Position numbers and translations under genes: made by a program
Assembly: GCA_937864815.1 (NCBI GenBank)
Contig: CALMJY010000342.1
Span: forward strand, 1 to 33,361
Source of the DNA: an uncultured Bacteroidota bacterium
GTDB lineage: Bacteria; Bacteroidota; Bacteroidia; Bacteroidales; VadinHA17
Length of the DNA: 33,361 nt
Direction: 5' to 3'
Notes under the pieces: model-generated
Databases searched by the model: none
What the model was told of the DNA's origin: nothing
Seen by the model: the letters and a program-made list of their open reading frames with translations, nothing else
Part shown: positions 7,993 through 27,627 of the stretch, one piece after another
How the letters are laid out: every line of letters starts with the position of its first letter
Numbering within the stretch: position 1 is the first letter of the stretch

Positions 7993-8007
7993 AATAATAG
8001 ATTTTAA

Positions 8008-9473: not shown

Positions 9474-10367
9474 ATGAAAATTGAGATCCGCGGTCTTAAC
9501 CAGATATACCCAAACGGCAACCATGCACTTAAAGACATAAATCTTGAACTTGGAACAGGTATGTTTGGACTGCTTGGTCCAAACGGTGCAGGGAAATCAA
9601 GTCTGATGAGAATCCTGGTTGCACTGATGAAACCCACATCAGGTGTTGTGCTGGTTGATGGTATGGACATTCAGAAAAACAGGGAGAAACTAAGGTTCAT
9701 GCTTGGTTACCTTCCGCAGGATTTCCGGTTCTTTACTTCTCTCAAAACCTGGGAATTTCTCGACTACTCAGGTTCCCTGGCCGGGATGAAAAACAGGAAA
9801 GAGAGAAAAGCAGAGGTTGACAGGCTTCTCGACCAGGTTGGACTGCTTGAAGTCCGTGACAGAAAAGCAAACAAGCTATCCGGTGGAATGAAAAGAAGAC
9901 TTGGAATTGCTCAGGCCCTGATAGGAAATCCAAGGATAATTGTGGTGGATGAACCCACCACAGGACTCGATCCCGATGAGAGAATAAGATTCAGGAACAT
10001 CCTTTCACAACTCAGCAGGAAAGAGGTTATAATCATTCTTTCAACACATATTGTTGGTGATATATCATCAACATGTCAGGGGATGGCTCTGCTTAATAAG
10101 GGAGAGATGGTATTTAACGGGTCCCCTGAAAATCTGGTAAACCAGGCTGAAGGTCATGTTTTCCGCATGGTACTGAGTCCGCATGAATATGATATTGTAA
10201 AGGAGAAATACAATGTAATCTCAACTGTTCCCGTAGAAACAGGATGGGAGGTACAGATAGTGTCTGATGATATTCCTGAATTCAGGGCAACAAAGGTTAA
10301 GCCGAATATCGAAGATGCTTATGTTTACTATATGGAGCATAAACTCAGGACATATATTACTGATTAA
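9474..10367 (+). CDS. ABC transporter ATP-binding protein
   Basis: 297-aa nucleotide-binding subunit of an ABC-2 type transporter. Walker A GPNGAGKS (residues 35-42), Q-loop at GYLPQDF (about 78-84), signature LSGGMKRR (135-142), Walker B IIVVDE (155-160) followed by PTTGLDP, and H-loop His192 (STHIV) are all intact, so it should hydrolyse ATP. Residues 220-297 form a C-terminal extension (AEGHVFRMVLSPHEYD...IEDAYVYYMEH). The same extension occurs in the ATPase domain fused to the second RND pump of this cluster, so the two are paralogues. The permease gene starts 14 bases downstream and is the obvious partner. Confidence 0.93.
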   Translation: MKIEIRGLNQIYPNGNHALKDINLELGTGMFGLLGPNGAGKSSLMRILVALMKPTSGVVLVDGMDIQKNREKLRFMLGYLPQDFRFFTSLKTWEFLDYSGSLAGMKNRKERKAEVDRLLDQVGLLEVRDRKANKLSGGMKRRLGIAQALIGNPRIIVVDEPTTGLDPDERIRFRNILSQLSRKEVIIILSTHIVGDISSTCQGMALLNKGEMVFNGSPENLVNQAEGHVFRMVLSPHEYDIVKEKYNVISTVPVETGWEVQIVSDDIPEFRATKVKPNIEDAYVYYMEHKLRTYITD

Positions 10368-10381
10368 TTGTTAAATAAAAG

Positions 10382-13300
10382 ATGTCATTTCTGCACAATG
10401 CAGGTACTGTAGCTAAGTATGAGACAGTAATCCTCAGGAGAAGCTGGTTTTTCAGACTTTTCACAATAGGATCACTCGTCATCTTTAGTTTCATGAATAT
10501 AGGGTTGTTTTCCCCTGTTGGCGGGCAGCCCTGGGAACTTATATCAATTCCATCAACTATCCCTCTGATTAATCTCTATCTTCTGAATATAGGGCAGGCT
10601 ATTGTTGTGATATTCCTGGCAGCCGATTTCCTCAGAAGGGACAAGAAACTTGATACCAATGAAGTTCTCTATACCCGTTCTATGTCAAACTTCGAATATG
10701 TCCTTGGAAAAACATGGGGAATCATCAGGCTTTTTCTCGGTCTCAATATAATTATTCTTTGCATCGGCCTGCTGATGAATATAATCTCAAAAAGTATATC
10801 GGTTGACATACTCTCCTATCTGCAGTACATCCTGATATTTACAATACCAACCATTGTATTCAGTCTGGGATTGGCTTTTCTCCTCATGTCAGTAATAAGG
10901 AATCAGGCTATTACTTTTCTGATATTACTTGGTATTGCTGCACTTGACATGTTCTGGTTCTGGTACAGGGCCGGATCAATTTTTGATTACATGGCATTTG
11001 GTCTGCCGGTATATAAATCCGAAGTGATCGGTTTCGACAACGTTGAAGGAATAATAATACAACGGCTCCTCTTTTTCTTCGCAGGCATGGCAATGGTTAT
11101 GGGTACCGTACTGATATTCAAAAGACTGCCACAGTCAAAACTCCACACATCACTGGCTGTACTATTTCTGATCCTGTCTGTATCAGCATCTGTTTTTTGC
11201 GGATACAAAATTTACACTGCTGTAACAAACAATTATGAGACCCGGGAAAGAGTCACTGAAACAAACCGTGAATTTGAAAACCGGATATTCCCTGTGCTTA
11301 CAGATGTTTCAATTGAACTGACACACGAAGGCGAGACTATCGAGGCCGAAGCTTATCTTAAGATTACCAATGATAACGGAGAACCTCTTGAAACTTACCT
11401 GTTCTCGCTGAATCCTTCACTCACTGTTAATAAAATAACAGCACAAGCCCGTGATCTTGAATATAAGATATATAACCATGTTATAGAAGTCATGCCCGGT
11501 AAAGTACTTCTCCCCGGGATGAGTGACAGTCTGAAAATTGAGTATACGGGCAGAATAAACGAAGCTTATTGTGCACCTGACTTCAGTGGTAATCTGAAGG
11601 ATAATATTAACAGGATTGCAATGTTTAATGTAAGCAAAAGGCAGTATTTCCTGACTGATAATTATCTTCTCCTTACTCCTGAAACTAACTGGTATCCGGT
11701 GGCATCACTGAATTTCTATCCTGCAAACCCGGCCAGGATAAAAATCGATTTCACAAATTACACGCTGAAAGTAAAATCTGTGAAAGGACTTGTAGCAGTT
11801 TCCCAGGGAAGGAGAGAATTTGATTCAGCCGGATATACGTTTACACCTGAAAGTCCTCTTACAGGACTGACGCTTGCAATGGGGAACTACCGCTCTGATA
11901 CCATAAAAGTTGACTCCATAACATATATAACCCATTTTTTCCCGGGGAATGATTACTATAAAAAAGACCTGACAGAACTGAAAGATACTCTGCCAAACCT
12001 TATTTCAGGCATCATGAGAGATCTTGAAACATCATTCTCATCTGATTATCCCTTTAAAACACTCAGCCTTGTTGAGGTGCCTGCTCAGTTTTATTCTTAT
12101 ACCCGGCAGAGTACACAGACAAGAGCGGAAGTTCAGCCATCACTAATCCTTCTGCCAGAAAGACTCTCTTCCCTTGAAAACGCCGGCTTTGGTCAACGGT
12201 TCAAAAACCAGAAAAAAAGGATGGCAAGGAACAACCAGGTAATAACAGACAAGGAGTTACAGATAAGGCTTTTTAATGATTTCATGAGAGAAAATTTTAT
12301 AAGCGGTACCAATACTGTATATGCCAGGAACAACAATGATGAAAGCACTTATTCTGAACCTTCGCGATACCGGCTGGGACCAAGCTTTTATTTTTACCGG
12401 AATAACTTCCATTCCTCTGAGTTCCCGGTAATAAATGCAGTGTTCGAATCCCATTTGCAGCATCTTTTTCAGCAGGGATCAAGAACCGGATTTTTATCGA
12501 TGCTCGGCTCACTCTCCGAAATCGACAAAGCAAACCTGATACTGAGAACAAAGAGTTTCAGTGAACTTCTTGCCGAAAACCCCAAAGGAGATACAGTAAG
12601 GGTAGTACTCGGAGTTAAGGGTGACTGGTTGTTTAACCTGCTGCGATCGGAAGCAGGAATTGAAGAATTCAATAAATGGTTCAGAAAATACTGCGACGAA
12701 AATCAGTTCAGGAGTGTCGATTTAATGAAATTCAGAAGTGATGTTAAGCAAGAGTTCAACTTTGACTTTTATCCCTACCTCGATAAGTGGTTCAATGGCA
12801 GGCAGCAGCCGGGGTTCCTCTTTTCGGGTCTAAGAGTAAGTGAGATTGTTGTAGATGAAAGATCAAGATACCAGGTATCCTTTACGGCTTTAAATCCTGA
12901 AGCGGTACCGGGAGTATTCAATATTTCATTCAGAGGTGAAGGTCCGGGGAGGCAGGGAAGACCGGGAGCCGGAGGCTTTTCACCACAAGGTCCTGGTTCG
13001 GGACAATCATTTATGCAGGGAAGAGGAATGGAGGCATCAGATATAGAAAAGATAGTGCTTCTTGGACCCGGGGAGACAAAAATGATCTCTATCGTTACCG
13101 ACGTGCAGCCAAGAGCAGTAGTTATAAATACCCTTTTTGCAAGGAATATTCCGGGAGAAATAAACATGCCGGTTGACAATATAATTAAATCAAGAAGGAA
13201 TCAGAATAGCTTCACTTCTGATGAAAAAATTATTGCTACGTCAGAAAATGGTGATCCCGGGGAAATAATTGTAGATAATGAAGATCCGGGTTTCAGTTCA

Positions 13301-13834
13301 GGTGCTGATATTGTTGAAGCACCTCTGAAAAGGCTTTTCGGAATTACAAACAGAAGAAGTAAATCTTATATGCAGGTAGCCCAGTGGAATATTCCAGAAT
13401 ACTGGCAACCTGTTGTCCAGTCATCCTACTATGGAAAATATGTAAGATCAGCAGTGTACAAAAGAACAGGATCGGGTGACAGGCCTCTGACTTGGTCTGC
13501 CAATATCACTGAACCCGGTTATTATGATGTCTACTGCTATATAGGTAAAAGTATGGAAAGAAGACGGATAAGAACAGACAGGGAAGGTGGTCAGGAGGGG
13601 CCGGTTGCCAGGGAAGGAGAACAGGAAGAAAGCCGGTTTAAGGATCATCATTACAAAGTTTATCATGATGATGGTGTTGAAGAAATAACTGTTGACTATG
13701 AAAATGCAGAGGCAGAATGGAACAATATCGGAAGATACTACCTGTCGAAAGATACAGCCAGGGTCATCCTCTCAGACCAGTCTTCAGGCAGGCTTGTAAT
13801 TGGCGATGCAGTGAAATGGGTAAAAGTGGAATGA
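10382..13834 (+). CDS. ABC permease with M1-peptidase-like and golvesin-like domains
   Basis: 1150-aa membrane protein. Residues about 1-285 hold seven hydrophobic segments of an ABC-2 permease half (first RRSWFFRLFTIGSLVIFSFM, last LHTSLAVLFLILSVSASVF). Residues about 300-860 resemble the M1-aminopeptidase-like exterior of a known class of Bacteroidota ABC permeases, but no HExxH zinc motif exists anywhere; the nearest string is FESHLQHLF near residue 690, so peptidase activity is unlikely. A Gly/Pro-rich linker lies near 855-880. Residues about 998-1150 (GYYDVYCYIG, HYKVYHDDG, NNIGRYYLSKD, VIGDAVKWVKVE) match the golvesin C-terminal-like/xanthan-lyase-type fold, a probable carbohydrate- or protein-binding module outside the membrane. 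It pairs with the upstream ATPase. A seven-base repeat array begins at its stop codon. Confidence 0.8.
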   Translation: MSFLHNAGTVAKYETVILRRSWFFRLFTIGSLVIFSFMNIGLFSPVGGQPWELISIPSTIPLINLYLLNIGQAIVVIFLAADFLRRDKKLDTNEVLYTRSMSNFEYVLGKTWGIIRLFLGLNIIILCIGLLMNIISKSISVDILSYLQYILIFTIPTIVFSLGLAFLLMSVIRNQAITFLILLGIAALDMFWFWYRAGSIFDYMAFGLPVYKSEVIGFDNVEGIIIQRLLFFFAGMAMVMGTVLIFKRLPQSKLHTSLAVLFLILSVSASVFCGYKIYTAVTNNYETRERVTETNREFENRIFPVLTDVSIELTHEGETIEAEAYLKITNDNGEPLETYLFSLNPSLTVNKITAQARDLEYKIYNHVIEVMPGKVLLPGMSDSLKIEYTGRINEAYCAPDFSGNLKDNINRIAMFNVSKRQYFLTDNYLLLTPETNWYPVASLNFYPANPARIKIDFTNYTLKVKSVKGLVAVSQGRREFDSAGYTFTPESPLTGLTLAMGNYRSDTIKVDSITYITHFFPGNDYYKKDLTELKDTLPNLISGIMRDLETSFSSDYPFKTLSLVEVPAQFYSYTRQSTQTRAEVQPSLILLPERLSSLENAGFGQRFKNQKKRMARNNQVITDKELQIRLFNDFMRENFISGTNTVYARNNNDESTYSEPSRYRLGPSFYFYRNNFHSSEFPVINAVFESHLQHLFQQGSRTGFLSMLGSLSEIDKANLILRTKSFSELLAENPKGDTVRVVLGVKGDWLFNLLRSEAGIEEFNKWFRKYCDENQFRSVDLMKFRSDVKQEFNFDFYPYLDKWFNGRQQPGFLFSGLRVSEIVVDERSRYQVSFTALNPEAVPGVFNISFRGEGPGRQGRPGAGGFSPQGPGSGQSFMQGRGMEASDIEKIVLLGPGETKMISIVTDVQPRAVVINTLFARNIPGEINMPVDNIIKSRRNQNSFTSDEKIIATSENGDPGEIIVDNEDPGFSSGADIVEAPLKRLFGITNRRSKSYMQVAQWNIPEYWQPVVQSSYYGKYVRSAVYKRTGSGDRPLTWSANITEPGYYDVYCYIGKSMERRRIRTDREGGQEGPVAREGEQEESRFKDHHYKVYHDDGVEEITVDYENAEAEWNNIGRYYLSKDTARVILSDQSSGRLVIGDAVKWVKVE

Positions 13835-13952: not shown

Positions 13953-15443
13953 ATGAATATGAACCGCTTAAGAATGAAAGTCAGACTAAAGCTATTATGT
14001 ATTGTATTCCTGCCTGTATTTAATATTTCAGGTTTTTCTCAGCAGGGACTTACACTTGAGCAGTCGCTAAGCACTGCTGAAATGAACAGTCCTTCGATGA
14101 AGAAGACAAGACTTAACCTTATCCGGAACCAGGAGAATCTCAATGCCCAGAATGCAGCTCTCAAGTCGCAGTTTTCACTGACACTTAACCCGGTTAGCTA
14201 CACCCAGAGCAGGGAATTCAATAATCTTATCTCAGACTATAATACATATAATGCCACCGAGAGTTTTGGAACATTCTCAGTGATGCAGCCGATTAAGCTC
14301 ACTGATGCAAAAATTTCACTGTCTAACAAATTCGGTTATACCGATTCATACAGTGAGTATTCAGGTACATCCACAAAAGGATTTAATAACAATCTGTCCA
14401 TCAGTCTCGATCAGCCGCTATTCACTTACAACAGAACAAAGCTGACCCTGAAGGAACTTGAACTGGCGCTGGAGAACTCACAGCTCAATTATGCAATACA
14501 GCTGCTTGGACTTGAACGTCAGGTTGCCCAGGCATTTTACTATGTATACCAGCAACAGCAGAGTCTTGACATAGCGAAACAGGCCTATGAGAATATGCAG
14601 CAAAGCTACGAAGTATCGAAAAACAAGGTAGATGCCGGAATATCAGCAAGGGAGGAGATGTTCCAGGCCGAACTTAACCTGGCCACAACAAAATCAGATT
14701 ATGAAAATGCACTTGTTTCACTTGAGAATGCAAAGGATGATTTCAAACTACTCATAGGAGTCAGTCTCCTCGAAGATATAATTGTACTTCCAAATATTGA
14801 AGTCGATACTGTCAATGTTGATATAAGCTTTGCAATTGATCAGGGGTTGGCAAACAGGATGGAACTCCGTCAGAGAGAAATTGACATAGAGATTTCACAA
14901 TTTGACCTGATCCAGACCAAGTCACTGAATGAATTCAAAGGGAACCTCGGCGTAACCGTCGGCATTTTCGGAGATAGTGAAAATCTTGAAAACCTGTATG
15001 AAAATCCAACCGACAACGAATCGTTTGCCCTTTCACTTTCAATCCCGCTCTGGGACTGGGGTGAAAGGAAAGCAAGGATCAAAGCATCGGAAGCTTCCAT
15101 AGAATCAGCCAAGGTATCATCTGAAGAGGAACAGAATAATATAATCCTGGGCATCAGGAAAATCTACAGAAACCTGATAAACCTGCAGAACCAGATTGAA
15201 ATAGCAAGACAATCTGTAATAAATGCCCAGCTAACATACGATCTTAACCTTGAAAAATACAAGAATGGCGACCTCACAGGTATGGATCTTAATATCTTTC
15301 AGAATCAGCTGTCGGAAAAACAGCTTTCCTATACCAACTCGCTTATCTCCTATAAACTGGAACTGCTCAATCTGAAGATACAGACACTTTATGATTTCGA
15401 GAAGAAAGAGCCGGTATCTCCTGTAATGACTTTGGATAAATAA
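13953..15443 (+). CDS. TolC-family outer-membrane efflux channel
   Basis: 496-aa outer-membrane factor that forms the exit duct of a tripartite pump. A signal peptide ends near GFSQQ; the ATG at 13974 (MKVRLKLLCIVFLP) would give a more typical signal peptide than the first ATG at 13953, so the start is uncertain by seven codons. The two OEP repeats are visible as long amphipathic Gln/Glu/Asn-rich helices (EQSLSTAEMNSPSMKKTRLN; later QVAQAFYYVYQQQQSLDIAK and the mirrored RKIYRNLINLQNQIEIARQS), each with strands such as SLSIPLWDWGERKARIKAS. It is followed after 18 bases by the adaptor gene. Substrate unknown. Confidence 0.9.
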   Translation: MNMNRLRMKVRLKLLCIVFLPVFNISGFSQQGLTLEQSLSTAEMNSPSMKKTRLNLIRNQENLNAQNAALKSQFSLTLNPVSYTQSREFNNLISDYNTYNATESFGTFSVMQPIKLTDAKISLSNKFGYTDSYSEYSGTSTKGFNNNLSISLDQPLFTYNRTKLTLKELELALENSQLNYAIQLLGLERQVAQAFYYVYQQQQSLDIAKQAYENMQQSYEVSKNKVDAGISAREEMFQAELNLATTKSDYENALVSLENAKDDFKLLIGVSLLEDIIVLPNIEVDTVNVDISFAIDQGLANRMELRQREIDIEISQFDLIQTKSLNEFKGNLGVTVGIFGDSENLENLYENPTDNESFALSLSIPLWDWGERKARIKASEASIESAKVSSEEEQNNIILGIRKIYRNLINLQNQIEIARQSVINAQLTYDLNLEKYKNGDLTGMDLNIFQNQLSEKQLSYTNSLISYKLELLNLKIQTLYDFEKKEPVSPVMTLDK

Positions 15444-15461
15444 ATATAAAAAGATACGATC

Positions 15462-16514
15462 ATGAAAAAAGGATTTTTCATCTTAACACTTTTCCTTACA
15501 GTACTTTACTCCTGTAAAAACAGGGATCAGAACCTGAATGCTGATGTGGAAATACCTGTATCGGTTGAAGATCTAAAACTCAGGCATATAGGTGAATATA
15601 TAAGCACCACCGGGACCGTTTATCCCAAGGGAGATATTGAACTCAGGACAAAAATAACTGCAACATATTTCCTTGAGAAGAATCCTGAAACCGGCAGGAA
15701 CTGGCAGCTGGGTGACAGGGTCAGAGCCGGATCCCTTATTGCCAGGCTTGAGGATAAGGAATATGTAAATTCTATTCAGCTGGAAACAAATGAGCTTAAC
15801 ATGGAGCTTATGGAAAGTGAACTGAAAAAACAGGAATCACTTTATGAAAAGGGAGGTGTAACCCTGAAGGAGCTGAAAACAGCCAGTATAAACTACAGCA
15901 ATGCCAAAACAACAGCTGAAAATTCGCGGTTACAGCTTGAAAAAACGAGGATCACCTCTCCCATCGATGGTGTTATTGTTGATCTGCCTTATTTTACACA
16001 GGGGAGCCAGGTAGAAACAGGGTCAACAATAGTTAAAATTATGGATTACAATATTATGTATCTCGATGTGCAGCTTCCTGAAAAATATATATCGGAGATA
16101 AAGCCCGGACAAAAGGTAAGCCTTACAAACTATACTATTCCCGATGACACAATAACCGGCAGTATTACACAGCTGTCACCTGCAATTGATCCTGATACCA
16201 GGACATTCAAAGGAAATATTTCAGTTTCAAATGCGGGTTTGCTGCTCAGACCAGGTATGTTCGTAAAGGCTGATATCCTGATTAACCAGAAGGATTCGGT
16301 AATAGTGATCCCTAAAAACCTTATTCTTTCAAGGCAGCGTGGCAAGACAGTTTTTGTTGTTGACAGGGGAATTGCCAATGAAAGGATAATCGAAACGGGG
16401 CTTGAAAACCTTACAGATATTGAAGTTACAAGAGGGATTTCAGTAAATGAAAAGCTTGTAACAAGCGGTTTTGAGACACTCAGCAACAAGTCGAAAGTAA
16501 AAATAATCAGGTAG
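15462..16514 (+). CDS. RND efflux periplasmic adaptor lipoprotein
   Basis: 350-aa membrane-fusion protein linking RND pump to TolC channel. Residues 1-18 are a lipoprotein signal with lipobox LYSC (Cys18). The split lipoyl/barrel-sandwich domain occurs at STTGTVYPKGDIELRTKI...GDRVRAGSLIARLED (about 48-98) and ITSPIDGVIVDLPYFTQGSQ (about 165-184), enclosing a short helical hairpin (about 105-160). The beta-barrel includes YLDVQLPEKYISEIKPGQKV and DPDTRTFKGNISVSN, with the membrane-proximal domain after residue 280 (VIPKNLILSRQRGKTVFVVD). The pump gene starts four bases after its stop, indicating tight coupling. Confidence 0.93.
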   Translation: MKKGFFILTLFLTVLYSCKNRDQNLNADVEIPVSVEDLKLRHIGEYISTTGTVYPKGDIELRTKITATYFLEKNPETGRNWQLGDRVRAGSLIARLEDKEYVNSIQLETNELNMELMESELKKQESLYEKGGVTLKELKTASINYSNAKTTAENSRLQLEKTRITSPIDGVIVDLPYFTQGSQVETGSTIVKIMDYNIMYLDVQLPEKYISEIKPGQKVSLTNYTIPDDTITGSITQLSPAIDPDTRTFKGNISVSNAGLLLRPGMFVKADILINQKDSVIVIPKNLILSRQRGKTVFVVDRGIANERIIETGLENLTDIEVTRGISVNEKLVTSGFETLSNKSKVKIIR

Positions 16515-16518
16515 CAAC

Positions 16519-19500
16519 ATGAACAGGATTGCACAATTTGCAGTAAAATATCCGGTTACTGTCCTCATGCTGGTGCTGGGAGTTGTCCTGCTTGGTTATA
16601 TTTCATTCGGCAAACTGGGTACCGACCTTTTTCCCGATCTGAACAATCCCAAGATCTACATTGAACTGAAGGCAGGTGAGAGACCGCCTGAAGAGATAGA
16701 AAAGAATTACGTCGACCAGATTGAATCACTGGCCATGCGTCAGAGTGATGTTGTGGAAGTATCTTCCGTTTCCCAGGCAGGATCAGCTACCATTACAGTG
16801 GAATATAACTGGAACAAGGATATGGATGAGGCCTTTCTCGATCTGCAGAAAGAGCTAAACTCATTCAGCCAGAATTCGGACCTGGAGGATTTCACGATTT
16901 CTCAATATGACCCGAATGCAGTTCCTGTGATGACTATAGGGCTGAAGCATGAAACCATAACCAATATGGATGAGCTCAGGAAAACAGCCGAGAACTACAT
17001 CAGAAATGAGCTTGTAAGGATTGAGGGTGTTGCCGATGTAAAACTTTCAGGGATCGATGAAAGTGAGGTCGTCATTGAAACCAGCAGGTATATCCTGGAA
17101 TCATTCGGGCTTACTTCCGACGTTATTGCAGCCCAGATCAGCAACTATAACAGAAATGTTTCAGGAGGATCGATAATTGATATGGGTCTCAAATATGTGG
17201 TTAAGGGAGTAAGTGTACTTGAAAATACAGAAGACATTGGAAATATAATTGTCGGATTCAGACAGGCTGCTGAAACCACTCCAGCCTCCCCAGCATTATC
17301 CACAGGAGCATCTGCTGCTGCACTTTCAGCCAGGGTTCCTGTATACCTTAAGGATGTTGCCACAATAAAATTTGATAATAAGGATCCGGTGAATATTGTT
17401 ACCCTTAACGGAGAACGATGCGTGGGACTTCTGATTTACAAGGAACCAAAATTCAATACAGTGGAAGTCGTAAAGAGTCTCGATCTGGCTATTGCGGATC
17501 TTGAAAAAGCATTACCCGGATACAGCTTTACGAAAGTCCATGATCAGGGAAACTACATTGACAATGCAATAGGTGAAGTAAAGAATACTCTCATAGTTGG
17601 TATCCTGCTGGCAGTATTTATACTTTATGTATTTCTGAGAAGGATAGGCACCACACTGGTTATCAGTATGGCAATTCCGATTTCCATCATTGCCACTTTC
17701 AACCTGATGTATTTCAACCATCTTACACTTAACATAATGACCCTGGGAGGACTTGCCCTTGGAGCAGGGATGCTTGTTGACAATGCAATCGTGGTTCTTG
17801 AGAACATTACCAGACTGAGGGAAGAAGGAGTTCCATTTATAGAGGCAGTGACAAGAGGGACCAGTGAGGTAGGTGCTGCAATAACTTCTTCAACTGTTAC
17901 TACAATAGTAGTGTTTCTCCCTATAGTTTACCTGCATGGTGCTTCAGGTGAGATGTTTAAGGATCAGGCATGGACAGTTGCATTTTCGCTTTTGTCTTCA
18001 CTTGCAGTTGCAATGCTTATCATTCCAATGCTGGTGTCTGTCCTGCTGCCGGATAAAAATAAGCCTGCAGCATCAGCAAAATCGTTAAAATTCAACTGGT
18101 ACAGCAGGTTTCTTGAAGCAGTTATTGTGAAAAGAATAACAGTACTCGTTGTATCTCTGATAATTATGGGATTTACCGCATTGCTGATTCCCGGACTGGG
18201 GAGTGAGTTTATGCCCAGATCAGAATCTGCTGAATTCACGGTTAATCTCAAATTACCGGAAGGAACAAGTCTCGAACTGACTTCAAAAACAACATCGGGT
18301 GCCGAAAGAATGATAAAAGAACTGCTGGGTGATAAGCTGAAGCTGGTTTACAGTCAGGCAGGAAGTGATAATAACTCAACCTTTAGTCAGACCGGACAGA
18401 CCAAAGGTGATAACACTGCAACAATAAAGGTGGTTTTGAATCCTCAGTATTCGGGTTCTGCAGAAGAGTCAATTTCGGTAATAGAGAAATGGCTTAAAAC
18501 AATTCCTGATCTTGAAACAGGATTTACAAGGGATGAAACTGCCCTTCAGGCCTCACTTGGAACTAATGAGGCACCATTTACTCTTGAGATTTCGGGTGAG
18601 GATCAGTCTGAGCTGGAAAGAATCCTTCGTGAATGCAGGGCTATACTTGAAACAAATTCCGGGCTCTACAATATTTCAACATCGCTCGATGAAGGGACTC
18701 CGGAGGTGGAGGTTGAAATTGACAGGTTCAGGGCGAGCTATTACAGTGTTACTGTCGAAAGCATTATCAGCCAGGTTAAGAACTACCTTTCAGGATCTCC
18801 TGCAGGCAGCTTTGAGAAAGACGGAGAGATGAAAGACATTACAATCAAGCTCGGAGATCTGTCGCTTTTGAGTCTGAAAGATATAATGATAAATACGGGA
18901 AATATCAAAGTCCCCCTGAGTGAACTGGCAAAGATAAAAACAGTTACAGCTCCCAGGCAGATTACCCGCAGAAACCAGTCAAGAACATGCTATATATATG
19001 CTATGGTAAAAGGCAATGCGGCATTTGATAAAGTAATAAATGAAGCTGAAACATCACTTGCCGGTGTTAAGCTTCCGCTTGATTATAAATTAGAATTTAC
19101 AGGAGAAGAGCTAAAGAGAAAAGAGACAATGTCAAATCTATCATTTGCCCTGGTTCTTTCCCTGATACTAGTATTCATGGTATTGGCTGCACAGTTTGAA
19201 TCAGTAATTCAGCCGTTTATTATTATGCTTACCATTCCCCTTGCAGGTGTGGGTACCGTTCTTACCTTCTTCCTGCTGGGGAAACCTCTTAACATGATGG
19301 CCTATATCGGAATAATTATGCTGGGGGGTATAGCTGTCAATAACGCAATTCTGCTTGTTGACAGGATAAACCAGCTAAGGGAATCAGGAATTGGTAAAAA
19401 GGATGCGATAGTACTTGCAGGTGCTCAAAGAATAAGACCAATTCTGATGACAAGCCTGACAACCATTCTTGCACTGCTTCCGCTTACGGTAGGAATTGGC

Positions 19501-19671
19501 GAAAGTGCCTCACTCAGAGCTCCTATGGCCCTAGCAGTAATAGGAGGCATGGTTTCATCAACCATACTTACACTTATTGTAATTCCATGTGTATACTGGG
19601 TATTCGACACTCTGAGCAGTAAGATTTACAGGCCAGCCAGAATCACTGAAGGGCAGACAAAAAATATTTAG
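16519..19671 (+). CDS. RND efflux pump, inner-membrane subunit 1
   Basis: 1050-aa HAE-type resistance-nodulation-division pump with the usual 12 helices and two periplasmic porter loops (about residues 35-340 and 560-860). TM4 carries GAGMLVDNAIVVLEN, with Asp421-Asn422 in place of the Asp-Asp of AcrB; TM10 carries GGIAVNNAILLVD, where AcrB has its Lys. This VDN/VNN pattern is common in pumps of this phylum, so proton drive is still plausible. An Ala/Thr/Pro-rich insert near residues 252-275 interrupts the first porter loop. It is followed eight bases later by a second RND gene; such pairs can form hetero-oligomers like MdtB-MdtC. Substrate not deducible. Confidence 0.92.
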   Translation: MNRIAQFAVKYPVTVLMLVLGVVLLGYISFGKLGTDLFPDLNNPKIYIELKAGERPPEEIEKNYVDQIESLAMRQSDVVEVSSVSQAGSATITVEYNWNKDMDEAFLDLQKELNSFSQNSDLEDFTISQYDPNAVPVMTIGLKHETITNMDELRKTAENYIRNELVRIEGVADVKLSGIDESEVVIETSRYILESFGLTSDVIAAQISNYNRNVSGGSIIDMGLKYVVKGVSVLENTEDIGNIIVGFRQAAETTPASPALSTGASAAALSARVPVYLKDVATIKFDNKDPVNIVTLNGERCVGLLIYKEPKFNTVEVVKSLDLAIADLEKALPGYSFTKVHDQGNYIDNAIGEVKNTLIVGILLAVFILYVFLRRIGTTLVISMAIPISIIATFNLMYFNHLTLNIMTLGGLALGAGMLVDNAIVVLENITRLREEGVPFIEAVTRGTSEVGAAITSSTVTTIVVFLPIVYLHGASGEMFKDQAWTVAFSLLSSLAVAMLIIPMLVSVLLPDKNKPAASAKSLKFNWYSRFLEAVIVKRITVLVVSLIIMGFTALLIPGLGSEFMPRSESAEFTVNLKLPEGTSLELTSKTTSGAERMIKELLGDKLKLVYSQAGSDNNSTFSQTGQTKGDNTATIKVVLNPQYSGSAEESISVIEKWLKTIPDLETGFTRDETALQASLGTNEAPFTLEISGEDQSELERILRECRAILETNSGLYNISTSLDEGTPEVEVEIDRFRASYYSVTVESIISQVKNYLSGSPAGSFEKDGEMKDITIKLGDLSLLSLKDIMINTGNIKVPLSELAKIKTVTAPRQITRRNQSRTCYIYAMVKGNAAFDKVINEAETSLAGVKLPLDYKLEFTGEELKRKETMSNLSFALVLSLILVFMVLAAQFESVIQPFIIMLTIPLAGVGTVLTFFLLGKPLNMMAYIGIIMLGGIAVNNAILLVDRINQLRESGIGKKDAIVLAGAQRIRPILMTSLTTILALLPLTVGIGESASLRAPMALAVIGGMVSSTILTLIVIPCVYWVFDTLSSKIYRPARITEGQTKNI

Positions 19672-19679
19672 TTAACAGG

Positions 19680-22600
19680 ATGGACTTTATAATCAAGAGA
19701 AAGATACTGATCATAATGCTCTTCACAGGGCTGACAATGCTTGGCTGGGTATCGTACAACAAGCTGTCAGTAGAACTGTTCCCCAATGCCGAATTGCCGG
19801 CCCTTATTGTACAGGTAGGCACACCCCTGGAAATGGATCCATCATATATTGAAACACAGGCAGTAATTCCGGTCGAAGGGGCGGTTGGCACTCTTGAGGG
19901 TATTGAAAAAATTGAATCAAATATATCCTCAAGATATGCAACAATAGTGATTTACTATAATCAGAATGCCGATCTCAAATATGCAAACCTGAAATTACAG
20001 GAAAAGATAGACATAGTAAAAAATTCAATCCCTGAAGAGTTTATAATTAATGTAATAAAGATTGACCTTAAACAGCTTACCAACCAGTTCATGGAACTTC
20101 AGGTAAGAGGTGAAGGTGGAATTGACAGGGTAAGAAATATTGCTGACAGGGAAATAAAACCGGAGTTTGAAAATATTGACGGGATAGCCGGTGTACAGGT
20201 TTATGGCGGCCAGGAAAATTCAATTGAGGTAAGACTGAATGAAAAAGCCTGCAAGGCAAATGGGATATCACCAGGACAGGTAAGAAACCTTCTTAATAAT
20301 AATGGAGCAGATAAGACCTTTGCAGGAAAAGTTGTCGATGGCAACAGGGAGTTGTTCGTCAATATTACTTCTGAATACACCGATGTAAATGAAATAGGCA
20401 GGATAATAATAAAAAGTGACGGACCTGTATTGCTCGGCGATGTGGCAGAAATCATTTACGGTGCAAAGGAAAGATCTTCTTACAGCAGGGTAAACGGACT
20501 TGATGCAGTTACCATCACACTTGTAAACGATAACCAGGCAAATCTGATAGATCTTTCACACGAAGCACTCAGCCAGGTAGAAAAACTTAACAAACAGCTG
20601 GCTCCTGAGGGTGTTTCCATTGCCGTGCAGAATAATACTGCCGAGATTATGGAAAAAAATATAAATCAGATCATAAATCTCGCAATTACAGGAGGACTTA
20701 TGGCTGTTCTTATCCTGTGGATGTTCCTGAGAAATATAAGACTTGTTTTTATAATTGCTGTTTCTATTCCATTGTCGGTCTATTCAGCCTTTAATTTCTT
20801 CTATGCATACGGCATCACCATCAACAGTCTTACACTTATAGGAATGGCTCTTGCTATCGGAATGCTTGTGGATAACTCAGTTGTTGTACTGGAAAATATC
20901 TACAGGCTTGCCGGCCAGGATTATACCCCTGAAAGAGCTGTTAAACAGGGCACTTCCGAAGTTTGGAGATCGGTATTTGCTGCGACTCTGACCACACTGA
21001 TAGTATTCTCTCCATTTATCTTTTCCGATAATTTCATGGTCAGGATCATCGGGAAGAATATCGGAGTGTCTATTATTTCCACACTTACAATATCACTGGT
21101 AGTCGCCATGCTGGTTATTCCTATGGCCACTTACCACCTTCTCAGCAGATCATCAGGAAGGACTTCTGAAATATTTAAAAAATTATCAATAAATGACAGG
21201 CTGATACAGTACTATTATCTGGTCCTTAAAGCAGGGATGAGGAATCCTGCCTTAACTATTATAGGTACACTTGTACTTTTTTTCACAGCCCTTCTTATCA
21301 GCCTCACTTTAAGCATAAGTTCCACTGAAGAAGTTGAAGCACCGACCTTCCGTCTTACAGTTGCAATGCCCGGAGGATCAACGCTTGAAAAGACTGATGC
21401 TGTTGTGGCAGAGGTTGAATCAAGGTTATCGTCTATAACTGAGAAGGAAGACCTGGTCAGCAGAATAGAAGAGGATCAGGCTACTGTAACCATTAATCTG
21501 AAAAAGGATTGGGATAAGGCAAGTAAAAGAACTCTCCCGGAGATTAAAAATGATATCGAAGAGAAGGTGAAAAATATACCTGCTGCCGAGATCAGCATGA
21601 ATGAACTCTCAACAGGAGGTGGATTCGAGGGTGGCAATGGTAGTGAAAATTATAATCCCGGAGCTGATTTCATGAATCTGCTGGGAATAGGAACCAAAAG
21701 GGAAAGCATCATTATCAAGGGACAGAATTTCAGTCAGATGAAAAACCTCGCTGATGATATTAAAGCATATACAGAGGATCTTTCAACAATCAGCAGTTCA
21801 AATGTGAATGTACAGGATAATAAACCTGAAGTCAGGTTGTTTTTTGACATGGATTACATGGGCAGGAATAACTTTACTCTCATAAATCTTTCTGCAGCTC
21901 TGGCCACTTTCTCACCCGAATATTCCTCCGGTGCTACCTTCAGGCAGGGATCGGAGAAATACGATATCATGATAAAATATGCAGAGGAAGATACACTGGC
22001 TGATAATCAAAAGGACAAAACAATTGACGATCTGAGACATCTGGAGGTCAGCGGCAACAATGGTACTGTAATGGAAATGGAAGAACTTTCCAGGATTATA
22101 TTTTCTTCTGGAATGGGTAATATCCACAGGGAAAACCAGGAAAAAAGGATAACTGTGTCATACTCCTTTACAGAAGAAATAAGAGACTCAAAGGAGCTTC
22201 TTGAAGGAGCCAGGAGCGAGCTTGAATCAATTGTTTCGGGCCTTAATATTCCATCGGGTATTGCAGTTGAGATTGTCCATGAGGAAAACCAGCTTGAGGA
22301 TTTCTATTTTATGATAGGTGTGGCTTTCCTGCTCATTTATATGATACTTGCTGCTGTCTTTGAATCACTTGTAACTCCTGTTGTATTGATGTTCAGTATT
22401 CCACTGGCTGCACTTGGATCCCTCCTCGCACTGATTATTACCCAGAACTCTCTTCTGAATGCCAATACACTTACAGGTTTTCTGATTCTGCTCGGGGTTG
22501 TTGTCAATAATGGTATTATCCTCATAGATTATACAAATATCCTTCGCAAAAGAGGATACCGTTCGTACAGAGCACTGATGATAGCAGGAGTAGCAAGGTT

Positions 22601-24434
22601 CCGGCCTATAATGATCACAGCGGCAACTACGGTTATAGCACTTGTACCTCTCGCAATGGGAGAAGCTGAATTTGTATCGGTTATCGGCGCTTCATTTGCC
22701 ATTACGGTAATCGGAGGTCTATCAGTCAGTACTCTTCTGACACTGGTTTTTATTCCGACTTTCTACATCGGGCTTGAAAATGCCCTTAAATGGATTTATT
22801 CTCTTGACTGGAAAATAAAGGCAGTTCAGCTCCTGATACTTGCATTATCCATCTTGCTCATTTACAACAATATTGATAAGTTCATCTGGAAGATGATTCT
22901 CATAATTCTCGTAGTGATACTCATCCCGGCTACCACATGGTTCATTCTGAAAAGTCTCAAAAAAGCAAGAGCCACTGTGATTTCACCTGATGACAGCATC
23001 ACAATTTTTGTACAAAGTCTTGTTAAAATATATGAGAGGGAAAACAGCTGGACAAGAGAACTGAAGGCGGGTGAGAAGATCAGAAAAAGACTGGGACTTG
23101 AGAAGCAATACCGGTCAGTCAGGGACATCAGTGATATGATATGGAAAATCCCTGTCCTGGGATTCCTTATATATTTTACCTATTTCTATCTCGACAAAGG
23201 ATTCTGGATCTTCCTTTTCAGTATCGGAACATGGTTCTTCCTTTCGTTCACATGGAATCCTGTAAGGAAACTGCTGCAGAACTTTGGCACTCAGTCAGAT
23301 AAAAAGCTGCTGAAAATAGTTCCCGCAATTATCGATTTTATTGTTTTCTGGATAATTCCACTGGCAAATCTGATCCTGTTTCAGCTCAGATGGGACAATA
23401 TTGTTGTTGTACTGATCCTGGGATCTTTGTGGTTAACAGCTCTTTTCATCTATAAAACCGGACTGAAGCTGTCAAACGAGAACATTGACATTTACAGGCT
23501 CGAAGGAAGATTTAAAACACTAAGGAAAGTGATTTACAGAATTGTTGCTGCAGTTCCTCTCATAGGGAAAAAGAAGAAACCATTCAAAGCACTGGGTTGT
23601 GTAACGTTGTCGGTAGGTAACGGGATGTTCGGTTTGCTTGGTCCGAACGGAGCAGGAAAAACAACACTTATGAGAATTATCTGTGGCATCCTTGAACAGA
23701 GCTACGGCAAGGTATGGATAAATGGTCTCGACACACAAAAGATGAGAGAAGAGCTTCAGGGACTGATCGGTTACCTCCCCCAGGAATTCGGAAGTTATGA
23801 AAATATGACAGCCCATGATTATCTTCATTACCAGGCTATTCTTAAAAATATCACTGATGCCCGGACCAGGGAAGAACGGGTAACCTATGTACTCAGGGCT
23901 GTCCACATGGAAGAACGTCGTTATGAGAATATCGGGTCTTATTCCGGAGGTATGAAGCAAAGAATGGGTATCGCACTTATTCTGCTGCATCTGCCCAGGA
24001 TCCTTGTGGTTGATGAACCAACAGCCGGACTTGATCCCCGTGAAAGGATAAGATTCAGAAACCTCCTTGTGGAACTGAGCCGGGAAAGAGTGGTTATCTT
24101 CTCGACTCATATTATAGAGGATATTTCCAGTTCATGCAACCAGGTAGCTGTGCTTAACAAAGGACGGCTCAGATATCTGGGAAAACCTGTCGATATGACC
24201 AGGGAGGCAGAAGGACATGTCTGGCAGCTGACTATTCATGAGTCAGAATTCCAGGCATTTGTTGATAAGTACCTTGTGGTTCATCATATGTCGGATGGTG
24301 AAAATATAAGGCTAAGAGTGGTATCTGAAGCAACTCCATCGCGTTCTGCAGTGAATGTAACACCAAGTCTTGAGGATGCCTACCTCTGGCTTCTGAGAGG
24401 ACACGAAAGCTTAAACAATAATATAACCATTTAA
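19680..24434 (+). CDS. RND efflux pump fused to an ABC ATPase domain
   Basis: 1584-aa single reading frame joining two transporter superfamilies. Residues 1 to about 1040 are a complete RND pump: VSYNKLSVELFPNAELPAL at the N-terminus, TM4 AIGMLVDNSVVVLEN (Asp398), porter loops about 35-330 and 565-855, and TM10 LLGVVVNNGIILIDYTN. Residues about 1041-1265 add six hydrophobic segments and a soluble stretch near 1090-1150, a membrane domain not found in ordinary RND pumps. Residues about 1299-1584 are a full ABC ATPase: Walker A GPNGAGKT near 1321, GYLPQEF, signature YSGGMKQRM near 1420, Walker B ILVVDEPTAGLDP near 1440, H-loop STHIIED, and the AEGHVWQL...LEDAYLW extension shared with the separate ATPase of this cluster. 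No stop or frameshift lies at the joint. A small ABC-2 permease follows seven bases later. Confidence 0.9.
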   Translation: MDFIIKRKILIIMLFTGLTMLGWVSYNKLSVELFPNAELPALIVQVGTPLEMDPSYIETQAVIPVEGAVGTLEGIEKIESNISSRYATIVIYYNQNADLKYANLKLQEKIDIVKNSIPEEFIINVIKIDLKQLTNQFMELQVRGEGGIDRVRNIADREIKPEFENIDGIAGVQVYGGQENSIEVRLNEKACKANGISPGQVRNLLNNNGADKTFAGKVVDGNRELFVNITSEYTDVNEIGRIIIKSDGPVLLGDVAEIIYGAKERSSYSRVNGLDAVTITLVNDNQANLIDLSHEALSQVEKLNKQLAPEGVSIAVQNNTAEIMEKNINQIINLAITGGLMAVLILWMFLRNIRLVFIIAVSIPLSVYSAFNFFYAYGITINSLTLIGMALAIGMLVDNSVVVLENIYRLAGQDYTPERAVKQGTSEVWRSVFAATLTTLIVFSPFIFSDNFMVRIIGKNIGVSIISTLTISLVVAMLVIPMATYHLLSRSSGRTSEIFKKLSINDRLIQYYYLVLKAGMRNPALTIIGTLVLFFTALLISLTLSISSTEEVEAPTFRLTVAMPGGSTLEKTDAVVAEVESRLSSITEKEDLVSRIEEDQATVTINLKKDWDKASKRTLPEIKNDIEEKVKNIPAAEISMNELSTGGGFEGGNGSENYNPGADFMNLLGIGTKRESIIIKGQNFSQMKNLADDIKAYTEDLSTISSSNVNVQDNKPEVRLFFDMDYMGRNNFTLINLSAALATFSPEYSSGATFRQGSEKYDIMIKYAEEDTLADNQKDKTIDDLRHLEVSGNNGTVMEMEELSRIIFSSGMGNIHRENQEKRITVSYSFTEEIRDSKELLEGARSELESIVSGLNIPSGIAVEIVHEENQLEDFYFMIGVAFLLIYMILAAVFESLVTPVVLMFSIPLAALGSLLALIITQNSLLNANTLTGFLILLGVVVNNGIILIDYTNILRKRGYRSYRALMIAGVARFRPIMITAATTVIALVPLAMGEAEFVSVIGASFAITVIGGLSVSTLLTLVFIPTFYIGLENALKWIYSLDWKIKAVQLLILALSILLIYNNIDKFIWKMILIILVVILIPATTWFILKSLKKARATVISPDDSITIFVQSLVKIYERENSWTRELKAGEKIRKRLGLEKQYRSVRDISDMIWKIPVLGFLIYFTYFYLDKGFWIFLFSIGTWFFLSFTWNPVRKLLQNFGTQSDKKLLKIVPAIIDFIVFWIIPLANLILFQLRWDNIVVVLILGSLWLTALFIYKTGLKLSNENIDIYRLEGRFKTLRKVIYRIVAAVPLIGKKKKPFKALGCVTLSVGNGMFGLLGPNGAGKTTLMRIICGILEQSYGKVWINGLDTQKMREELQGLIGYLPQEFGSYENMTAHDYLHYQAILKNITDARTREERVTYVLRAVHMEERRYENIGSYSGGMKQRMGIALILLHLPRILVVDEPTAGLDPRERIRFRNLLVELSRERVVIFSTHIIEDISSSCNQVAVLNKGRLRYLGKPVDMTREAEGHVWQLTIHESEFQAFVDKYLVVHHMSDGENIRLRVVSEATPSRSAVNVTPSLEDAYLWLLRGHESLNNNITI

Positions 24435-24441: not shown

Positions 24442-25161
24442 ATGAAAATCAGCAATGTATACAATTTCAGCAATCTGATCCTTAAAATGGTTGTTTACAA
24501 CCTGAAGATCATATTTGCAAATAAGTTTATATGGTTTCTGGCAGGATCGGTTGTATTTTATCTGGGACTGTCAGTAATTTATGTATTCGCCAATGATATT
24601 TCAAGAATGGATGACCTGTACGGAGTATTTCTCTTTTCAGGATTGCTTCTTGTTTTTTATCCTGCAGTATTCGGGATACAGAATGATCAGGATGCAAGAA
24701 CAATTGAAATACTTTTCGGAATACCCAATTACAGGTATAAGGTATGGCTTGTCAGAATACTTCTAATCTTTCTTGTAGCCTTCCTGATTATGCTCGTTTT
24801 TACATTTCTCTCTTCAATATTGATTGTTAAATTCAGGATTCTCATGGTCACACTGCAGGTAATGGTTCCTGTACTTTTCATGGGGATGCTGGCATTTCTG
24901 CTGTCGACAGTTATAAGAAACGGTAACGGGACAGCTGTCATAATGATAATAATCGGCTTAATTTATCTGATTTTAATAGACACCGGTCTTGGAAGAAGTC
25001 AATGGAATATTTTTCTTAATCCCTTTGAAGTCCCGCGTGGTGTTAATGAAACCTCCTGGGCTATAATAACATTCAAGAACAGGATCATCCTTATAACAGG
25101 TTCGGTTATATTCCTTCTTGGCGCTCTGCTCAATCTTCAGAAGCGTGAGAAATTCATGTAA
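24442..25161 (+). CDS. ABC-2 type permease, small
   Basis: 239-aa membrane protein with about six hydrophobic helices, typical of ABC-2 permeases: FIWFLAGSVVFYLGLSVIYV, GVFLFSGLLLVFYPAVFGI, IQNDQDARTIEILFGIPN (the cytoplasmic loop with the Asp-Ala-Arg-Thr-x-Glu pattern of the family), two helices at about 105-160, and a last one near 215-232. AAAGGAG lies only two bases before the ATG, close for a ribosome site; Met16 (MVVYNLKIIF) is an alternative start. Its position right after the RND-ABC fusion suggests that it works with the fused ATPase domain. Confidence 0.82.
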   Translation: MKISNVYNFSNLILKMVVYNLKIIFANKFIWFLAGSVVFYLGLSVIYVFANDISRMDDLYGVFLFSGLLLVFYPAVFGIQNDQDARTIEILFGIPNYRYKVWLVRILLIFLVAFLIMLVFTFLSSILIVKFRILMVTLQVMVPVLFMGMLAFLLSTVIRNGNGTAVIMIIIGLIYLILIDTGLGRSQWNIFLNPFEVPRGVNETSWAIITFKNRIILITGSVIFLLGALLNLQKREKFM

Positions 25162-25855: not shown

Positions 25856-26689
25856 ATGAGCAATATAAAACTTTTTGAAAGTAAGCAAGTTCGCTCTGAG
25901 TGGAACGAAAAAGAGCAGCAATGGTATTTTTCAATAATTGACGTTATTGAAATCCTTACAGAAAGTCAAAGACCAAGAAAATATTGGGCAGACCTAAAGA
26001 AAAAGTTGTTACAAGAAGGTTTTGAGCAGTTGTCCGAAAAAATCGGACAACTGAAAATGGAAGCTTCTGACGGCAAAAAATATCTGACAGATGTTGCCAA
26101 TGTTAAAACATTATTACGTATTATACAGTCAATCCCATCTCCCAAAGCAGAACCGTTTAAACGTTGGCTTGCCCAAATTGGGTATGAAAGGCTTGAAGAA
26201 ATAGAAAATCCTGAATTAGCTACTCAGCGTACCCGAGAACTGTACAAAGCAAAAGGTTATCCTGATGACTGGATAGAAAAACGAATGAGAAGTATTGCCA
26301 TTCGAGAAGAATTGACAGAGGAATGGAAAAACAGAGGAGTTAAAGAGCAACTTGAATATGCAATATTAACCGCAGAAATTTCTAAGGCAACATTCGGGTT
26401 GACTCCTTCTGAATACAAAAAAATCAAAGGATTAAAAAGTCAAAATTTACGTGACCATATGACTGACCTTGAATTGATTTTTTCAATGTTGGGTGAAGCT
26501 TCTACAACTGCTATTGTAAAAACAAAAAATCCTAAAGGTTTTGTTCAGAATAAGGTTGTAGCTAAACAGGGCGGAACAATTGCTGGTGACGCAAGAAAAG
26601 CATTAGAATTAAAAACAGGAGAAAAAGTAGTTTCTGAAGACAACTATTTACCAGAATCCCAAAAAAACAAAAAATTAAAGGACGGATGA
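25856..26689 (+). CDS. Bro-N domain / DinD-like antirepressor-type protein
   Basis: 277-aa cytoplasmic protein of the BRO N-terminal family, often annotated as DNA damage-inducible protein D. Residues about 1-115 are the Bro-N domain: IKLFESKQVRSEWNEKEQQW, WYFSIIDVIEILTES, then RKYWADLKKKL and LTDVANVKTLLRIIQSIPS. Residues 115-277 are the helical, charged half seen in DinD-like proteins, with AQIGYERLEEIENPELATQR, AKGYPDDWIEKRMRSI and TFGLTPSEYKKIKGLKSQNL. Relatives occur in phages and mobile islands, and Bro-N binds DNA in viral members. The gene is A/T-rich and flanked by two related hairpin repeats, pointing to transfer. The target is unknown, and SOS control is not visible as a clear LexA site. 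Confidence 0.78.
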   Translation: MSNIKLFESKQVRSEWNEKEQQWYFSIIDVIEILTESQRPRKYWADLKKKLLQEGFEQLSEKIGQLKMEASDGKKYLTDVANVKTLLRIIQSIPSPKAEPFKRWLAQIGYERLEEIENPELATQRTRELYKAKGYPDDWIEKRMRSIAIREELTEEWKNRGVKEQLEYAILTAEISKATFGLTPSEYKKIKGLKSQNLRDHMTDLELIFSMLGEASTTAIVKTKNPKGFVQNKVVAKQGGTIAGDARKALELKTGEKVVSEDNYLPESQKNKKLKDG

Positions 26690-26702
26690 AAGCCAACCCT
26701 AT

Positions 26703-26769
26703 TTGCAAGCACATTGTCAAAACCCCACGAGCCAACGCTCAGACCAAAGCTTTGTCAAAGAGTTTGCAA
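26703..26769. repeat. hairpin repeat copy B, downstream of the Bro-N gene
   Basis: TTGCAAGCACATTGTCAAAA and CTTTGTCAAAGAGTTTGCAA form an imperfect stem. Shared with copy A are CCCCACG, CAA, GCTCA and ACCAAAGCTTTG followed by CAAAGAGT, in the same order and orientation. Confidence 0.8.
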
Positions 26770-27104
26770 CGCCAGCACGATTAACCGCCTTTCAGGTCGG
26801 TTTTAGGATTGCCCACGCTCAAAAAACAAAATAAATTTATGCTTCGTGGATAGGTTGGTGCAGATTGACAATGGCAAGAAAATAAAAGCTAAATAAATGA
26901 CAAACATAAGGTTATGAATGAACACCAGTTGCCAATGCGGAATAGTTAATTGCCGGTGCAGTGCGTATTCGAGCGGCATAGCCCGTATAAAAAGTAGTTG
27001 TAACTTGATAGGCAAGTGTTTCGAAATCGGCAACTAACCATACCGCCAAAGTTATTGGCAAGTTGCAGTAAACTAGTCAGATTCGTGATTCTAACAAAAT
27101 TCTG
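26770..27104. other. intergenic region without a recognisable gene
   Basis: Holds GCCAGCACGATTAACC directly after repeat copy B, the palindrome GCCAA-AGTTA-TTGGC at about 27045-27059, and CGGCAACTAACCATACCGCC just before it. No open frame with convincing protein features was found on either strand. Confidence 0.5.
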
Positions 27105-27112
27105 TACCTTTG
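27105..27112 (+). promoter_or_regulatory. -7 box of the first MNT gene
   Basis: TACCTTTG matches TAnnTTTG 17 bases before the ATG. TTCG at 27082-27085 is a near match to the -33 box at 19 bases distance. Confidence 0.5.
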
Positions 27113-27128
27113 TGAAAAATTCACCAGC

Positions 27129-27443: not shown

Positions 27444-27627
27444 CAATTAGCAATAAAACAGAATACATCCGATATAGATTCAAAAGATCGCAGGAATCTT
27501 TTGATGAAGTCCTGATTATGATTCAAAATAGTAAATGGAATACAGCTTTGATGACAAAATTGTGCTCCCGTTGGTTGATCAGGTAAAAGAATTCTTATCT
27601 GAGATACAAATCCTCATAGAAGAATAA
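27440..27627 (+). pseudogene. HEPN toxin remnant with internal deletion
   Basis: From the ATG the frame reads MTISNKTEYIRYRFKRSQES and on to SKWNTA, the N-terminal helix of a HEPN-domain protein, then turns to unrelated residues and stops at 27586 (48 codons). In another frame the sequence from 27547 reads FDDKIVLPLVDQVKEFLSEI and ends in a stop at 27625-27627, which is the C-terminal helix of the same family. The middle of the protein, with the conserved helices and catalytic Arg/His region, is missing, and the joint is out of frame. A family member is about 125-135 aa; only about 62 codons remain. Loss of ribonuclease activity is very likely. Confidence 0.75.

Follow-up and report, generated by a model that had tools for sequence, protein, structure and literature searches.

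A single protein joining an RND permease and an ABC ATPase, in a conserved seven-gene set of some Bacteroidota, suggests one two-type export machine

The window analyzed here, a stretch of 33,361 nucleotides from the genome of an uncultured Bacteroidota bacterium (contig CALMJY010000342.1), carries seven consecutive genes, all on the forward (+) strand: a stand-alone ABC ATPase (ABCup), a large permease (Perm1150), a TolC-type channel, an HlyD-type adaptor, an RND permease (RND1), the protein that we call FUS in sixth place, and a small permease (Perm239). RND and ABC pumps belong to distinct superfamilies and draw on different energy sources, and FUS joins an RND permease and an ABC ATPase in one chain of 1584 residues, encoded at 19680..24434 (+) from an ATG and without an internal stop. 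An earlier note on this DNA had described a full RND pump, six extra hydrophobic segments and an ABC ATPase with intact Walker A, signature, Walker B and H-loop in a single open frame, and all of these parts are confirmed. Residues 2-1030 (19683..22769, +) constitute a complete RND permease, which matches Pfam ACR_tran with 521 bits against a cut-off of 28 (E 6.7e-156, profile positions 3-1018 of 1021) and whose closest solved chain by sequence, among the matches listed, is MdtB. Two of the extra segments lie at about 1044-1092 and four at about 1155-1262. In the same frame, residues 1316-1449 match Pfam ABC_tran with 91.8 bits (cut-off 25, E 7.5e-26). The motif residues are K1327 of Walker A, Q1368 of the Q-loop, S1422-G-G-M-K of the signature, D1445/E1446 of Walker B, D1452 of the D-loop, the switch H1477 and Y1118 of the A-loop, and these ATP-site motifs are each identical in all 58 distinct full-length FUS proteins that we collected, the window's copy included. 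A second copy of FUS is absent from the window's genome, where 43 other matches are partial, RND-only or ATPase-only. Although 185 NCBIfam models match FUS, none of the 25 among the matches listed reached its cut-off, and in each of the 60 of 398 solved chains listed the best stretch covers the RND part or the ATPase part alone. In profile comparison, the solved structures that score best with the fused ATPase are ABCA lipid transporters, but their scores add up two ATPase copies per chain.

The ATPase of FUS is not the contiguous fold that one would expect of this family. The stretch 1041-1300, with the extra segments, is not a mere linker ahead of the ATPase. Behind TM12 of the RND part, the order is two additional TM helices (residues ~1044-1092, 22809..22955, +), then ITIFVQSLVKIYEREN at 1107-1122, then an insert, and only then beta-2 and Walker A. 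The short stretch ITIFVQSLVKIYEREN resembles MKIEIRGLNQIYPNGN, the start of ABCup, and when a profile of ABCup residues 2-14 was slid over the FUS family the top of 1572 windows was 1108-1120, scoring 15.4 against 2.8 for the next. Residues 1107-1120 (22998..23039, +) already belong to the ATPase, as its beta-1 strand and its A-loop with Tyr1118, and are detached from the remainder of the domain, so the four TM helices that follow in the insertion (residues ~1121-1299, 23040..23576, +) lie inside the ATPase. The remaining part (residues 1300-1584, 23577..24434, +) holds Walker A, the Q-loop, the signature, Walker B and the switch histidine, together with a small C-terminal domain. FUS 1107-1584 is an ABC ATPase carrying an insertion.

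An AlphaFold2 model of the joint and the ATPase (36 aligned sequences, mean pLDDT 78.4, pTM 0.56) and a structural alignment of this model concur in separating beta-1 and the A-loop from beta-2 by a TM-bearing insert. In model numbering, the helices ahead of the ATPase are 12-32 and 36-61, beta-1 is strand 77-84, and four helices fitting the membrane (124-138, 142-173, 177-206 and 209-234) precede the rest of the ATPase, with which beta-1 is predicted to pair across the insert. In the structural alignment, 48 of the 50 chains among the matches listed begin at model residues 72-77, where the solved ATPase chain starts; the exceptions are two ABCA chains whose match starts earlier, at 4 and 37. 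The number of TM helices is even, 2 and then 4, so both parts of the ATPase should stay cytoplasmic. The TM numbers across the family are hydropathy counts, with four helices predicted for the insert by the model: there are 2 hydrophobic segments ahead of the ATPase in 57 of 58 FUS proteins and 1 in the other, and within the insert 4 in 40 proteins, 5 in 15 (the window's among them), 3 in 1 and 2 in 2. The insert measures 160-222 aa in 56/58; the short form of 106 aa in the other two, with two hydrophobic segments and not four, belongs to L072/L123 (one protein found twice) and L146. When the four-TM insert was used as the query against 395 genomes of the class, 5/395 were positive, all in frames of 1572-1640 aa.

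In the cassette around FUS, ABCup (297 aa, 9474..10367, +; ABC_tran E 1.6e-31) comes first, is 43% identical to the fused ATPase, and has its ATP-site motifs intact here and in all 32 proteins of its kind. Next comes Perm1150 (10382..13834, +), an ABC-2 half-permease with a degenerate M1-peptidase-like domain and a golvesin C-terminal domain, an assignment that comes from Pfam matches in relatives (at E up to 0.1, Golvesin_C in 33/33, ABC2_membrane_2 in 24/33 and Peptidase_M1 in 17/33), the window's own copy having Golvesin_C alone above cut-off. Hydrophobic segments number 7 in 29 of these 33 proteins and 8 in 4, and the window's copy has 7 within its first ~275 aa. A HExxH motif occurs in a single one of the 33, at residue 885 of L147. 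The TolC-type outer membrane channel (496 aa, 13953..15443, +; OEP E 6.7e-45), the HlyD/RND_mfp periplasmic adaptor (350 aa, 15462..16514, +; TIGR01730 188.7 bits, cut-off 94.9) and RND1, an ordinary unfused RND permease (1050 aa, 16519..19671, +; ACR_tran E 3.9e-217), follow, so that in the window and its relatives the RND genes are encoded with the adaptor and the channel of a tripartite system. Perm239 closes the set (239 aa, 24442..25161, +) and is by predicted fold a type V (ABC-2) half-permease, with six TM helices, a coupling helix and the type V arrangement. A comparison of the Perm239 and Perm1150 profiles gives an alignment of 151 columns, with an E no better than 0.1. The intergenic gaps of the cassette are 14, 118, 18, 4, 8 and 7 bp.

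This arrangement is kept wherever we could follow it. At the 58 loci where FUS is nearly full-length (each contig counted once, the window left out, and some found via Perm239), partners were present in every case in which the sequence reached their place: RND1 in 58/58, HlyD in 54/54, TolC in 52/52, Perm1150 in 30/30, ABCup in 28/28 and Perm239 in 56/56. All seven genes are full-length in 31 loci, exactly in this order in 30 of them; these 31 were selected by possession of all seven genes, so the partner counts are the fairer test. The fusion that the earlier note reported stands, and to it must be added the split ATPase and the seven-gene cassette, which that note had overlooked. One locus, L141 (G1008:C50:1500-20800), has an extra Perm1150-like ORF upstream of the cassette in the same orientation, 24% identical, with 718 aa visible and open at the edge.

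A stand-alone comparison locus in Bacteroidota, L172, indicates how an ATPase of this family may be paired with a permease. There, an ABCup-family ATPase (299.7 bits to the ABCup profile) adjoins a single permease of 1224 aa, in which 13 segments are hydrophobic, residues 67-123 and 338-490 give ABC-2 signals, and an M1 domain with a visible HExxH scores 55.1 bits for Peptidase_M1 (cut-off 27.7). The ATPase family and the ABC-2/M1 layout are common to L172 and the cassette, but L172 has all 13 segments in one chain and an M1 domain with HExxH, whereas Perm1150 has 7 segments and a degenerate M1 domain. With 7 segments against 13, a second half is to be expected for Perm1150, and Perm239 is the candidate. 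This comparison rests on layout and not on demonstrated homology, since a search of L172 with the Perm1150 profile gave no match at E up to 0.01. Beside 24 other stand-alone ATPases (L015-L038, with 1.5-kb flanks), the same profile matched in 1/24, L016, at E 3.6e-6.

Several searches for FUS and for unfused relatives were made with different parts of the cassette. Short peptides from the joint region were scanned against a genome collection of 84,980 species by its description, a scan in which exact short peptides reach close relatives alone; it gave 35 loci from Bacteroidetes, Bacteroidales and related groups, 34 of which match the joint over nearly its whole length, L073 matching over 31 residues at the start of an ATPase and nothing more. 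With FUS 1031-1584 as the query in 395 genomes of the phylum (three candidates scored per genome), 90 matched and 6 were fused, in frames of 1561-1640 aa. The remaining matches were ATPases in frames of 288-411 aa, bar one frame of 1432 aa in G344, which we rejected as a fusion because it is a GC-rich read-through upstream of a normal ATPase. The ABCup profile gave no match in a 1206-aa RND frame of G135. With the RND half as the query in the 395 phylum genomes (two best candidates scored per genome), the same 6 scored at least 1016 bits and were all fused, and the next best match, at 399 bits and 31% identity, was an ordinary frame of 1038 aa.

Perm239 offers a query that does not presuppose the fusion. 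It matched in 40 of the 295 genomes searched within the order, from 29/183 genera and 22 family labels. Of the positives, the window and G347 lie outside the 38 loci that were retrieved, and in 35 of these 38 the RND and ATPase parts share one frame; the other three, L119, L124 and L128, stop at a contig edge. The fusion was present in 20/22 of the Perm239-positive family labels, the other two stopping at contig edges. In all, we found the RND and ATPase parts in one frame at 72 related loci, some cut by contig ends and at least 3 pairs representing the same contig twice (L064/L114, L072/L123 with an identical protein, and L066/L115); L050, L060 and L065 contain frame breaks. The domain order singled out by the earlier note thus recurs in 58 distinct proteins, and separate-gene relatives, which that note had named as the finding that would overturn the fusion, were sought in phylum, class and order genome sets with the RND half, the ATPase half, the four-TM insert and Perm239 as queries, and no unfused close relative was found. 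Perm239 was without a match in G834 and G1012, of the window's genus, and in G932, of its family, so the distribution of the cassette is patchy. A tblastn search of the linker against 72,556 plasmid records gave no match that would indicate spread by plasmids.

Whether the RND proteins of the cassette use protons is uncertain. The proton-relay residues of TM4, TM10 and TM11 are, in AcrB numbering, D407, D408, K940, R971 and T978. At these positions FUS keeps D407, R971 and T978 in 58/58 proteins, has N in place of K940 in 58/58, and has N in 52, T in 4, S in 1 and C in 1 in place of D408. RND1 keeps D407, R971 and T978 in 57/57, with N in 52 and D in 5 at the position of D408 and N in 51 and S in 6 at that of K940. 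Since the set D-N-N-R-T is also found in 9/18 unfused Bacteroidota RND proteins, the replacement of D408 and K940 is no peculiarity of the fusion and gives no verdict on proton use. In a FastTree tree of 7 FUS, 7 RND1 and 18 other RND proteins, FUS and RND1 each cluster away from the 18.

The occurrence of RND permease and ABC ATPase as a single protein within a conserved seven-gene set of some Bacteroidota suggests one export machine of two types. The reading that we favor, and regard as moderately probable, is a hybrid trans-envelope exporter in which FUS couples a heteromeric RND-HlyD-TolC pump to a heterodimeric type V ABC transporter. If so, the N-terminal 1030 residues of FUS would be an RND protomer that assembles with RND1 into a heteromeric trimer, as in MdtB2C1, and the HlyD adaptor and the TolC channel would sit on top of this trimer. 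The FUS ATPase would hang below the RND part by two TM helices and by the TM bundle inserted in the ATPase itself, and in the cytoplasm it would pair with ABCup, the two together driving a heterodimeric type V ABC transporter with Perm1150 and Perm239 as its membrane halves. The substrate, hydrophobic and probably lipid-like, could then be flipped by the ABC part or extracted by it from the inner membrane, the RND-adaptor-TolC part would carry it out, and the fusion would force an ABC unit beside each RND assembly. What the computation itself shows is that the two parts are fused, that the ATPase is split but keeps its motifs, that Perm239 has a predicted type V fold, that relatives of Perm1150 carry ABC-2 signals and that gene order is conserved; the subunit roles, including the pairing of the ATPases and export by an RND heteromer, are those that appear most likely from gene content, folds and co-inheritance, and from these we infer the pairing, the stoichiometry, the substrate class, the direction of transport and the combined use of ATP and proton motive force. 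The guess of a lipid substrate draws on the type V relatives and on the DrrABC-MmpL7 case discussed below; the neighbor genes of related loci gave no hint of a substrate. A further, more tentative idea is that of a new class of trans-envelope machine, in which one covalent RND and ABC subunit mechanically links ATP hydrolysis in a two-fold type V ABC transporter to the proton-type cycle of a three-fold RND pump, one engine handing a single substrate to the other, and in which the ATPase, split behind its A-loop by membrane helices, is a new architectural variant; we would hold this possible but stop short of calling it probable.

The fused ATPase might instead gate or power the RND cycle directly, making FUS a doubly energized pump independent of any separate ABC transporter. 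Such a role would suit a single chain in which the ATPase is tethered right under TM12 of the RND part by two TM helices, and a family whose separated form was not found in the genome searches, but the ABC-2 half-permeases and the second intact ATPase, present in the cassette wherever the sequence reached, would be needless in a pump of this kind, and it is established that ABC ATPases act in pairs, whereas RND pumps are built as trimers. Because the cassette has these permeases and a second ATPase, the likeliest role of the fused ATPase is to drive an ABC transporter tethered to the RND part, not the RND part itself; direct ATP driving of the RND part is the less likely course, and we consider the doubly energized pump rather unlikely. 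The two mechanisms that the earlier note had offered fare differently in this light, ATP-gated loading of an RND conduit being the closer of the two and a single pump using both energy sources the less likely one. It is also conceivable that the fusion brings no functional coupling, and that a tied and co-expressed RND pump and type V ABC transporter move different substrates or run in parallel. Neighboring genes of an operon can fuse, and each half is equipped as a normal pump; yet one adaptor gene and one TolC gene serve both halves, and fusion and gene order are kept across 58 distinct proteins and 20/22 Perm239-positive family labels with no unfused descendant seen, so we regard this reading as unlikely.

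A different view of the extra membrane segments would make FUS an RND permease joined to a complete ABC half-transporter, with the six helices as an ABC half-permease. Six is the usual count for a half-permease, the model shows six, and the structural matches to ABCA4 and ABCA3 include TM helices, though with rmsd values of 9.6 and 6.3. The helices are, however, divided 2 + 4 around the first strand of the ATPase, and two profile comparisons with the permeases gave no match (the insert aligns to Perm239 over 18 columns at E 0.078 and the linker to Perm1150 over 27 columns at E 0.62). Mean identity in the extra-TM region is 0.59 against 0.86 for FUS 1300-1450, and the insert of 2/58 proteins has two hydrophobic segments only, all of which makes a half-permease quite improbable. 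As for an assembly chimera or a missed stop near the joint, which the earlier note had raised, the window does come from a draft genome of 348 contigs, but the one-frame joining of RND and ATPase at 72 loci (three same-contig pairs among them), in dozens of other assemblies and including L064 on a 752-kb scaffold not labelled as a MAG, already refutes it, and its probability is practically nil. The hybrid exporter, in which FUS would physically link the RND part and the type V ABC part, remains our preferred reading.

Functionally, the closest precedent for the FUS cassette is the pair DrrABC and MmpL7 of Mycobacterium, which is unfused. According to excerpts of PMC11539658, one lipid export pathway there needs an ABC exporter of type V together with a member of the RND superfamily, as the cassette might; DrrABC and MmpL7 are both required for PDIM export, and a scaffold role has been proposed for MmpL7, direct evidence for which, in those authors' words as excerpted, is still lacking. 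In the same excerpts MmpL7 is said to be without a proton relay. DrrABC and MmpL7 are separate genes and chains, whereas FUS is one chain, in an operon with an adaptor and TolC. Scores for the DrrA and GldA families fall short of their cut-offs (TIGR01188, 156 against 312.45 bits; TIGR03522, 163.4 against 402.6). The proposed RND heterotrimer has its precedent in MdtB2C1, as given in excerpts of PMC7015380. MdtABC-TolC and MuxABC likewise have two adjacent RND genes and an adaptor, and the nearest solved chain for both FUS and RND1, among the matches listed, is MdtB; these systems are without an ABC component, unlike the FUS cassette, and FUS reaches 249.3 bits against a cut-off of 1584 for the MdtB/MuxB equivalog and 250 against 1774 for MdtC. 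MacAB-TolC and other tripartite ABC exporters share with the cassette an ABC motor, an HlyD-type adaptor and TolC, but MacB is type VII, whereas Perm239 looks type V and the cassette includes an RND pump. Excerpts of a 2021 review (PMC8277102) describe tripartite assemblies as taking in type IV and type VII ABC transporters only. The type V transporters NosDFY and ABCA/ABCG have no RND part. The earlier note was not aware of a described example of such a fusion, and among the titles and abstracts listed in our searches of open-licence PMC literature neither an RND-ABC fusion nor an ATPase with inserted TM helices was found described.

If the hybrid exporter is real, a conserved single RND-ABC protein would be direct evidence of a physically coupled exporter with two engines, and the ABC-RND cooperation that is suspected for mycobacterial PDIM export would become testable in a linked form. 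It would also mean that type V joins the ABC types that work with an adaptor and TolC, and would bring in an ABC ATPase broken up by membrane helices. Proteins of the FUS type are probably entered in databases simply as RND permeases, though this is a guess; if they are, the class is easily overlooked.

Some other matches and neighbors may be mentioned. Among defence-system models, mad3 and AriA match the fused ATPase and further ATPase models match ABCup; we took this as generic ATPase similarity and rejected a role in defence. Divergent from the cassette in the window (5436-9261, -) lie genes for an LpxC joined to a FabA-like domain, LpxD and an HD-domain protein. A conserved link to lipid A through LpxC and LpxD was considered and is unsupported: none of the seven upstream genes of the window, used as queries, was among the matches listed for the related loci, in which ~1-3 kb upstream of ABCup is covered. 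The largest recurring group of upstream neighbors is found at no more than 4 loci. Downstream (25856-28406, +) the window has a Bro-N domain protein, a small nucleotidyltransferase-like protein and an isochorismatase-like protein. On the downstream side of the related loci, an opposite-strand ORF recurs at 13 and, as judged by eye, rimP-nusA-infB-like genes at 9-11, and we read these recurrent flanking genes as chance housekeeping neighbors.
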